Assembly (NCBI GenBank): GCA_022750155.1
Contig: JAKIWG010000012.1
Span: 1 to 64,000, forward strand
Direction of reading: 5' to 3'
Length of the DNA stretch: 64,000 bases
DNA from: Thermoplasmata archaeon
GTDB taxonomy: Archaea > Thermoplasmatota > Thermoplasmata > Lutacidiplasmatales > UBA184
Both the position numbers and the translations under genes were made by a program. How positions within the stretch are numbered: the first letter of the stretch is position 1; each line of letters opens with the position of its first letter. This document shows positions 18,714-60,052 of the stretch, one piece after another. Under the pieces are notes generated by a model. It had not been told where the DNA came from, made no database searches, and saw only the letters and a program-made list of their open reading frames with translations.

Positions 18714-19607
18714 GTGCCTTCCAAACGTCGACCTGCCCCGACGCCCCCCGCTCCACGGACCGAGCCCTCCACAGAGGAGCTCCCTCCCGACGAGGTCCCG
18801 CTTCCGATGATCGGCGGCGCGACCTCCCAATTTGCCGAGGTGGCCCACCTGGTCACCGCCGAGCCCGTCGTGAGCCCGCAGCAGGTGGCTCGCGGGGTCG
18901 TGGTGTTCGACCTCGACGGGACGATCATCGACGACATCGGCCTCATCAGCCACGTGGCGGCCGACGTGATATCGACTGCATTCGGCACTCCCGCCGCGGA
19001 GGCGCGGATCCATTATCTGGCCACGACCGGCATGCCGTTCGAGGCTCAGCTCGCCCAGCTGTTTCCCGCCGCCCCCGCGGTGCTTCGGGCACAGACCGCG
19101 AGGACCTTTCACCAGCGCAAGATCCAGGAGGCGTACAAGCACGCCAAGCCATTCCCTGAGATCCCCCGCGTACTCCGGACGCTCTCCCAACAGCAGTGGA
19201 CCCTGGTCGTTTCCACCGGCGCGGAGCGGGAGATGGCCGACCTCGTGCTCGAGCGGGAGGGGCTGCGATATTGGTTCGAGTCCGTGCTCGGCTCGGGCCA
19301 GGGCACCAAGCGCGAGCACCTGATCGAGTACCGCAGGCGCTATCCGGAAGCCCCCATGGTCCTGGTCGGGGATTCGCGATTCGACATGGAGGCCGCGGCT
19401 TCGGCCCCCGATGTTCTCCCTGTGGGACGGGCCTCGTCGCTCCAGGATTGGACGCTAACCCCGGCGGATCTCAAGAGCTGGGGAGCGGTGTGGGCGGACT
19501 ACTCGCTGGGAGCCCTCCCCGAGGCGATCGAAACCTTGCTTCGCCTCAGGCCGGAGGGCAAACGACCCGCGGCCCCCCGGAAGTCTGCGCGACCGGGGAA
19601 GAAGTAG
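18714..19607 (+). CDS. HAD-superfamily hydrolase
   Basis: VVVFDLDGTIIDDIG; VVSTGAEREM; VGDSRFDMEAAASA; GTG start. Confidence 0.85.
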   Translation: MPSKRRPAPTPPAPRTEPSTEELPPDEVPLPMIGGATSQFAEVAHLVTAEPVVSPQQVARGVVVFDLDGTIIDDIGLISHVAADVISTAFGTPAAEARIHYLATTGMPFEAQLAQLFPAAPAVLRAQTARTFHQRKIQEAYKHAKPFPEIPRVLRTLSQQQWTLVVSTGAEREMADLVLEREGLRYWFESVLGSGQGTKREHLIEYRRRYPEAPMVLVGDSRFDMEAAASAPDVLPVGRASSLQDWTLTPADLKSWGAVWADYSLGALPEAIETLLRLRPEGKRPAAPRKSARPGKK

Positions 19608-19714
19608 GGCCGGGACCGAGACTCTCCGGGACGGGGGTTGGCCCCGTTCCCTTTTGAACCCGGGTCGAGGGATCCACAGTCCCCCAGGATAGGCCAAGCT
19701 ACCCCATCCCGGCC
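19608..19714 (-). tRNA. tRNA-His (anticodon GTG), with predicted 31-nt intron in the T-loop (19622..19652)
   Basis: Minus strand: G(-1) GCCGGGA TG GGGTAGCTTGGCCTATCCTG GGGGA CTGTGGA TCCCT CGAC CCGGG TTCAAA [intron] T CTCGG TCCCGGC C. Acceptor 7/7, anticodon stem 5/5 (one G-U), T-stem 5/5 (one G-U) after intron removal; encoded G-1 opposite C73 as in tRNA-His. Confidence 0.85.
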
Positions 19715-19882
19715 GCATCGCATCGAGGCAGGGCCGAGGAGAAAAGCGTTTCGTTCCGACGCCGAGACATTCTGCGTTCGGGGGAACTCAGGGGAGCGGG
19801 CGGGCGGGTCGCCCCCTCCGGGCGGCAGAATCCCCCCACGCGAGAGCCTAAATGCCGCCCTCCGACTCCGCCGCGCTCCTTC

Positions 19883-21682
19883 ATGGCTACTTCGCCCGAA
19901 CCTGCATCGGCCCCGCGCCTGCATGCCTGGCTCTCCGTAGCCACCTGCCATACGCCGAACCCGACCGCGGACGGAGAGCAGGTCCTCTTCCTGAGCGATG
20001 AGACCGGACTCCCCCAGGTCTGGGCGGTCGGTACCAACGGCGGGACCCCCCTGCGACTTCTCCCGAACGACGAGCGCGTCGGTGCCCTCCATGCGGCCCC
20101 TTCAGGGACGGCCGCGATTCTCGCCGTGGACCGGCGGGGCGATGAGCATTGGCAGCTTCAGTACCTCCCCGACGTCCGGCAACCGACCAAGGGGGGGAGG
20201 ATGCTCACCGACCGCCCCGCGGCGATCCATCTCCCGGGGGGGTGGAGGGACGACGGGCGGAGGTTCGTCTTCTCCTCGAACGCCCGCGACGGGCGATTCT
20301 TCGACATCCACCAGCTGAACGTGGACCGGCCCGGGGAGCTCGAGACGCTCTGGGAGCACGACGGCTGGACCGACCTCGTCGCGGTCCGGGAGGAAGACCT
20401 GCTCATCGCCGAGCGAAAGACCAACCTCGATGCCGACCTGTACCTGGTCCGAAGCGGGGCTCGTCATCACCTGAACCCGCACTCCGGGGAACAGACCGTC
20501 ACCTCCGGGACCCTCGCGGGGGGGATCGTGTATGTCGGGAGCAATCCGGGACGGGAGTTCTGTGCCCTCGTCCGATACCGCGTGGGGGCCTCGAACCACG
20601 AATTCCTGCGCGAGTACGACGGCGACGTGGAGCTGGTGCGTGCGTCCCCCGACGGTCAGTTTCTCGCGGTAGTGCTCAACCGACAGGGGTGGAGCGACAC
20701 CCGGGTGTATGCGATCGCGACCGGAGAAGAACGCGCACTCAACTCGGGGCAGCGCGGCGTCGTCGGATCGCTCCGATGGCTGCCCGATAGCTCCGGATAT
20801 GTCTTCGACCTGAGCTCTACCGAAGGGGTCGACGTCTACCGTCGCCTTCTTGCGACGGGCAAGGAGAAGCGTCTCGCCACCTCCCCGCGCCTCGTCCCGG
20901 TCCATCTCGCCCCGCCGCGGCTCGGCGAATTCCGGGCCTCCGACGGCGTGAGCGTGCCCTACTGGGAGTACGCGCCGACTCCGCCGAGCGTCCGCGGGAC
21001 GATCCTGTGGGTCCACGGCGGTCCGGAGGCGCAGGCCCGCCCGTCCTTCTCGCCGGTCGTCGAATTCCTGGTGGCCGAAGGATGGCGCGTGATCGCCCCG
21101 AACGTTCGCGGCAGCACCGGATACGGTCGCACCTTCGTCCACCTCGACGACGTCGGGCTGCGCCTGAACTCCGTTCGAGACCTGTCGGAGCTGGTCGGGC
21201 GCCTCGTGCGCGACGGCAAGGCCACCCCGGGGCGACTGGGAATCGTGGGAGCGAGCTACGGAGGGTTCATGGTCCTCTCCGCCGCCACTCGGTATCCGGA
21301 GCTCTGGGGGGCGGCCGTGGACGTCGTCGGGATCGCGAATCTGGTCACGTTCCTCGAGGAGACCGGGCCCTGGAGACGGGCGCTCAGGGAAGCAGAGTAC
21401 GGGAGTCTGACGACAGATCGCCGTATCCTCGAGGACTTCTCCCCGATCCACCGGGCGGCGGAAATCCGTGCCCCGCTGTTCGTGATCCACGGCCGCAACG
21501 ACCCGCGAGTGCCGGTCCACGAGGCCGAGCAGATCGTGGGGACCCTTCGCACGCTCGGCCGTGAAGTGGAGCTCCTGATCTTCGAGGACGAGGGGCACGT
21601 GATCTCCCGCCTACCGAACCGTATCCTCGCCTGGAGCCGGGCGGTCGAGTTCCTCGACCGTCACCTGACTCCTCGCGCGTGA
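19883..21682 (+). CDS. S9-family prolyl oligopeptidase / acylaminoacyl-peptidase-like
   Basis: N-terminal beta-propeller; catalytic GASYGGFMVLSAA, GRNDPRVPV, EDEGHVI; VHGGPEAQ. Confidence 0.9.
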   Translation: MATSPEPASAPRLHAWLSVATCHTPNPTADGEQVLFLSDETGLPQVWAVGTNGGTPLRLLPNDERVGALHAAPSGTAAILAVDRRGDEHWQLQYLPDVRQPTKGGRMLTDRPAAIHLPGGWRDDGRRFVFSSNARDGRFFDIHQLNVDRPGELETLWEHDGWTDLVAVREEDLLIAERKTNLDADLYLVRSGARHHLNPHSGEQTVTSGTLAGGIVYVGSNPGREFCALVRYRVGASNHEFLREYDGDVELVRASPDGQFLAVVLNRQGWSDTRVYAIATGEERALNSGQRGVVGSLRWLPDSSGYVFDLSSTEGVDVYRRLLATGKEKRLATSPRLVPVHLAPPRLGEFRASDGVSVPYWEYAPTPPSVRGTILWVHGGPEAQARPSFSPVVEFLVAEGWRVIAPNVRGSTGYGRTFVHLDDVGLRLNSVRDLSELVGRLVRDGKATPGRLGIVGASYGGFMVLSAATRYPELWGAAVDVVGIANLVTFLEETGPWRRALREAEYGSLTTDRRILEDFSPIHRAAEIRAPLFVIHGRNDPRVPVHEAEQIVGTLRTLGREVELLIFEDEGHVISRLPNRILAWSRAVEFLDRHLTPRA

Positions 21683-36922: not shown

Positions 36923-36997
36923 GGGCGTGTAGCCTAGTCTGGATAGGGCACCGGGTTCCTAACCCGGCGGTCGGGGGTTCAAATCCCCCCACGCCCG
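36923..36997 (+). tRNA. tRNA-Arg (anticodon CCT)
   Basis: gggcgtg ta gcct agtctggata gggc a ccggg ttCCTaa cccgg cggtc ggggg ttcaaat ccccc cacgccc g; all stems pair. Confidence 0.93.
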
Positions 36998-59977: not shown

Positions 59978-60052
59978 GGGCGTGTAGCCCAGTCTGGATA
60001 GGGCACCGGGTTCCTGACCCGGCGGTCGGGGGTTCAAATCCCCCCACTCCCG
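59978..60052 (+). tRNA. tRNA-Arg (anticodon CCT), second copy, C4-U69 acceptor mismatch
   Basis: gggcgtg ta gccc agtctggata gggc a ccggg ttCCTga cccgg cggtc ggggg ttcaaat ccccc cactccc g; 72/75 identical to 36923..36997. Confidence 0.85.

Follow-up and report, generated by a model that had tools for sequence, protein, structure and literature searches.

The 64-kb window, the whole stretch of DNA that we analysed, carries on its minus strand the only tRNA-His gene found in the genome of a soil Thermoplasmata archaeon (Lutacidiplasmatales-like). We are nearly certain that this single gene is functional and that its precursor loses a bulge-helix-bulge (BHB) intron at position 59/60, in the T-loop, through the action of an alpha'2 splicing endonuclease and the RtcB ligase. 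The tRNA-His(GTG) gene runs from G-1 to C73 (19714..19608, minus strand) and both of these terminal bases are genome-encoded, as is evident from direct reading of the sequence. Exon 1 (19653..19714, minus strand) comprises G-1 and positions 1-59, with the acceptor strand GCCGGGA, the anticodon loop CTGTGGA, the T-stem strand CCGGG and TTCAAA, while exon 2 (19608..19621, minus strand) consists of T60, the T-stem strand CTCGG, the acceptor strand TCCCGGC and C73. Between them lies the 31-nt intron, AGGGAACGGGGCCAACCCCCGTCCCGGAGAG (19622..19652, minus strand), which occupies the same site in relatives. As expected from a preliminary description of the window, removing these 31 nt yields a canonical tRNA: the spliced sequence is called tRNA-His(gtg) by ARAGORN, with a T-stem of 5/5 pairs, while the unspliced gene gives no call with ARAGORN and no match with cmscan/Rfam. 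The same description had warned that default finders could overlook the gene, and indeed both programs report two tRNA-Arg(CCT) in the 64-kb window and no other tRNA. Its reading of the locus as a functional tRNA-His(GTG) that contains a BHB intron of the archaeal type at 59/60 is supported by the sequence, by the ARAGORN call on the spliced form and by the relatives.

The stop codon of a convergent HAD-family hydrolase gene (18714..19607, plus strand) directly adjoins the 3' end of tRNA-His, and the junction, already pointed out in the preliminary description, was confirmed at 19605-19608, next to C73; the resulting GGCCCTA arrangement is common to most relatives. On the other side, a divergent gene of the S9 prolyl-oligopeptidase family (19883..21682, plus strand) serves as a synteny anchor in relatives. 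A candidate TATA-like element, GAAACGCTTTTC (19741..19752, minus strand), lies about 28-39 nt upstream of G1; judged by eye, many relatives display a similar A-rich/T-rich box at about equal distance upstream of tRNA-His. The two tRNA-Arg(CCT) genes of the window (36923-36997 and 59978-60052, both plus strand) are identical at 72/75 bases within dissimilar flanks; in the second, one acceptor pair is broken. An att-site origin was considered for this second copy, and a Pfam scan of proteins encoded nearby revealed no integrase.

The precursor is predicted by RNAfold to form a cloverleaf with a BHB in the T-arm, the minimum free energy (MFE) structure being identical to the centroid and both agreeing with the fold initially drawn for the intron. 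The central helix pairs exon positions 54-57, TTCA (19655..19658, minus strand), with GGAG in the intron (19624..19627, minus strand), and is supported by RNAfold and by covariation. It has 3/4 pairs in the window gene (U-G, U-A and C-G, with an A.G mismatch), exactly as first described, and 4/4 in many relatives and sister genes. The 5' bulge is formed by A58, A59 and the first intron nucleotide (19652..19654, minus strand) and the 3' bulge by intron nucleotides 30-31 (AG) and T60 (19621..19623, minus strand), so that two 3-nt bulges lie on opposite strands around a 4-nt helix, as in a BHB. The rest of the intron folds into the hairpin GGGA-a-CGGGG-ccaac-CCCCG-TCCC (19628..19651, minus strand), present in the MFE structure and marked by compensatory changes in orthologues. 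From the TTCAAAT loop that is restored, we infer that cleavage would take place after 19653 and between 19622 and 19621. When compared to dinucleotide shuffles, the whole precursor has a weak z-score of -1.25 and the T-arm piece one of -2.09. Since the folding energy only mildly beats the shuffles, the proof of the BHB rests on comparison.

Exon 1 has one match in the host genome, no other tRNA-His occurs among the tRNA matches of this genome, and an uninterrupted tRNA-His (at most 3 mismatches) was found in 0/103 family genomes. The second intact tRNA-His that the preliminary description had treated as a sign of a pseudogene was therefore found in neither. Exon 1 is present in 86/103 family genomes, and in 35/36 of the high-quality ones. 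In seven named relatives (L075-L080 and L084) the gene is syntenic beside the S9 peptidase gene and has its intron at the identical site. Relatives also keep the acceptor complement, together with exon 2, whose conservation the earlier reading had made a test of its own. Exons are near-invariant across relatives, while 35 distinct 32-nt orthologous His introns average 67% identity and nevertheless keep 90.6% of their hairpin pairs, as opposed to 76% (maximum 81%) when permuted. We extended the comparison to 100 T-loop-interrupted genes from four isotypes (His, Glu, Asp and Arg; 91 distinct rows). In this alignment 96.8% of helix cells are paired, compared to 74.2% after shuffling and no more than 64.6% after sliding; double changes occur at 24/32 pairs and the covariation score is 0.579, against 0.187 for shuffled data. 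The central helix has the consensus TTC(A/G)57 : (T/G/C)GA(A/G), in which exon base 57 follows the intron: A57 occurs with U in 32 cells and G57 with C in 17. The partner of A57 is mostly U and otherwise gives the A.G mismatch, and the mismatch position is unpaired in 42/91 distinct rows. This covariation between an exon base and the intron, read from aligned sequences, is the expected signature of a central BHB helix. Together with the synteny in named relatives, the covarying helices indicate that the intron is not there by chance.

The possibility that tRNA-His is a unique anomaly was ruled out, because the weak or truncated Rfam matches of the host genome turned out to be further T-loop-interrupted tRNAs. 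Introns at 59/60 are found in at least 11 tRNA genes, namely His, Arg-TCT, Glu-CTC, Ala-GGC, Asn-GTT, Gly-TCC, Arg-TCG, Asp-GTC, Ser-GGA, Gln-CTG and Leu-TAG. All 11 recover a 5/5 T-stem after splicing, have a central helix of 3-4 of 4 pairs and share the form TTC(A/G)AA^...(T/G/C)G(A/G)(A/G)NN^T (^, splice junction). Ala-TGC is kept outside this set, as its contig ends right at the 59/60 junction. About 41 tRNA genes were identified by hand, roughly a quarter of them T-loop-interrupted. Recent copying of introns from gene to gene is unsupported, the best pair within the genome reaching 0.68 in a rough gap-penalised alignment score. Reading by hand also revealed D-arm introns in Arg-GCG, Pro-TGG and Leu-TAG. 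The tRNA-Leu(TAG) gene (locus L146, contig C26, about 105-270) has an intron in the D-arm and a second one in the T-loop, and lies just downstream of the T-loop-interrupted tRNA-Gln(CTG). On the same contig, Arg-GCG (L140) and Pro-TGG (L148) have D-loop introns at a similar place (GGTAGCTA...), and Arg-GCG of another family (locus L207) likewise has a D-loop intron. Canonical 37/38 introns are present as well, in Tyr and Met; one further locus (L034), which ARAGORN reports as an intron-containing Ser(TGA), is by hand a Leu(TAA) with a 37/38 intron.

In a 250-genome sample of the class, all 58 genomes of the window's family match the T-loop-intron model R1 (E at most 7.8e-20), a model that also matches ordinary tRNAs; a His-specific model was therefore used to survey the other families, at one or two genomes per family. 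The tRNA-His gene has a T-loop intron in families f20, f23 and f16; in f2 and f15 its intron is at 37/38, and it has no intron in f8, f9, f11, f18, f22, f24, f25, f28, f29, f30, f31, f32 and f33. In f17, it is tRNA-Arg that has a T-loop intron. The distribution of the trait is thus patchy over the class as a whole and dense within the window's family. An origin of the DNA from Thermoproteales is excluded, its nearest named relatives being Thermoplasmata/Lutacidiplasma MAGs.

The host genome has one gene for RtcB (PF01139) and one for a PF01974 endonuclease. A heteromeric enzyme, raised in the preliminary description as one that might accept a relaxed motif, is not what this gene encodes: the predicted protein of about 353 aa contains two PF01974 stretches in one ORF, with the catalytic Tyr/His/Lys only in the C-terminal unit (FRGY/AHAR/RKEF), and its PDB relatives include the enzymes of M. 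kandleri (5X89) and A. fulgidus (1R0V, 2GJW). By these sequence features it is of the alpha'2 homodimer type, a single two-domain chain. Endonucleases of broad specificity have a loop, either crenarchaeal (CSL) or of ARMAN (ASL), that is inserted close to where the catalytic unit begins and contains a conserved Lys. No CSL- or ASL-like loop was found in the host enzyme, which was aligned with the catalytic subunits of Aeropyrum and Pyrobaculum; opposite the Aeropyrum loop segment it reads AYG-SRVGAR-LELS. We propose that the alpha'2 homodimer would bind the BHB made up of the T-stem, the TTCA:GGAG helix and the intron hairpin, and would cut after A59 and before T60, each time past the second base of the bulge; RtcB would then join the exons into the mature T-loop TTCAAAT, and splicing would have to precede both T-loop folding and aminoacylation of tRNA-His.

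Two observations count against this explanation, the weak z-score of the whole precursor and the A.G mismatch in the central helix, and alpha'2 enzymes have been described as narrow (PMC6379350, PMC12397907). Such enzymes are held to be limited to canonical BHB motifs (PMC4033280, PMC12397907) and many non-canonical positions are in use here, which would favour removal of the intron by something other than alpha'2 alone, whether a different nuclease or a partner subunit that has escaped recognition. We regard this as very improbable, given that PF01974 is represented by a single gene, that the motifs are near-standard BHBs and that homodimers are reported to accept BHL-like motifs as well as a minimal BHB (PMC8707768). 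In favour of the proposed route, the homodimeric endonuclease of Ferroplasma, another Thermoplasmata archaeon, is reported to cleave a minimal BHB at 30 C (PMC8707768). As the motif is a near-standard BHB in a non-standard place, tolerance of position may be all that the enzyme needs; relaxed recognition would be called for only by the A.G mismatch, which is frequent.

The remaining alternatives concern the gene itself. In favour of a tRNA-His remnant, disrupted by an insertion of 31 nt while a working copy exists elsewhere, standard finders miss the gene and the genome is 93.7% complete, so that a second copy could sit in a gap. Across the family, however, the gene is fixed, its exons are conserved and its intron covaries, and none of the 103 genomes searched yielded an intact counterpart; on these grounds we discarded the pseudogene as highly improbable. 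Still less credible, to the point of being negligible, is retention of the 31 nt in the mature tRNA-His as an enlarged T-arm: RNAfold does predict a stable hairpin, but the insertion destroys the T-loop required for the elbow, and in all isotypes compared both junctions retain the 3-nt bulges and the central helix.

The way in which such genes are detected has practical consequences. ARAGORN or default Rfam searches would list tRNA-His and other isotypes as absent from such genomes, and conclusions on completeness and codon usage would be affected. The founding paper on Lutacidiplasmatales (PMC9287336) used tRNAscan-SE in archaeal mode and gives all 20 isotypes for AcS3-62, with introns going unmentioned; as the tRNA-His locus of this isolate (L076) contains the T-loop intron, tRNAscan-SE probably detects the gene.

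BHB introns outside 37/38 were considered almost exclusively crenarchaeal in 2011 (PMC3218864). tRNAscan-SE 2.0 has since counted 673 of them in 217 archaeal genomes, the newly detected ones chiefly in Crenarchaeota and Thaumarchaeota (PMC8450103). No description of T-loop introns from Thermoplasmata turned up among open-licence papers. Reviews associate the euryarchaeal alpha4 and alpha'2 enzymes with few introns, all at 37/38, and diverse introns with enzymes that are (alpha-beta)2 or bear a loop (PMC4090602, PMC4033280, PMC12397907). T-loop introns are of a known kind, while a lineage-wide set of them beside an alpha'2 enzyme departs from this rule of enzyme/intron co-evolution, to which the window's family, one genome of which has at least 11 T-loop introns, is a clear exception. 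We lean towards the view that a large lineage of soil Thermoplasmata independently built genome-wide T-loop (and D-arm) introns, some of them in essential tRNAs that exist in single copy, and that an alpha'2 enzyme lacking CSL and ASL serves the whole set. If so, and contrary to the published rule, broad intron use could do without a specific loop as well as without a heteromeric enzyme. The family offers a natural test, at moderate temperature, of whether tolerance of position and tolerance of motif are separate properties of the enzyme.

The non-canonical introns of Thermoproteales and other Crenarchaeota resemble those described here in their BHB junctions, their sites outside 37/38, including the D-arm and T-loop, their presence in many genes per genome and the occurrence of double introns. 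They differ in the enzyme, which is (alpha-beta)2 with the crenarchaeal loop there and of the loop-free alpha'2 type in the soil Thermoplasmata host. Permuted tRNAs share the splice position, 59/60 being their joint in Thermofilum pendens and Cyanidioschyzon merolae (PMC3218864), whereas the tRNA-His gene has the normal exon order and an ordinary internal intron. With canonical euryarchaeal 37/38 introns, the class of enzyme and the BHB motif are shared, and position and number differ. Finally, the alpha'2 endonucleases of Archaeoglobus fulgidus (1R0V/2GJW), Thermoplasma (2OHC) and Ferroplasma likewise contain two tRNA_int_endo units with the triad in the C-terminal one only; those that have been solved are 289-305 aa long, shorter than the host protein of about 353 aa, and, unlike them, the host enzyme would serve many non-canonical introns.
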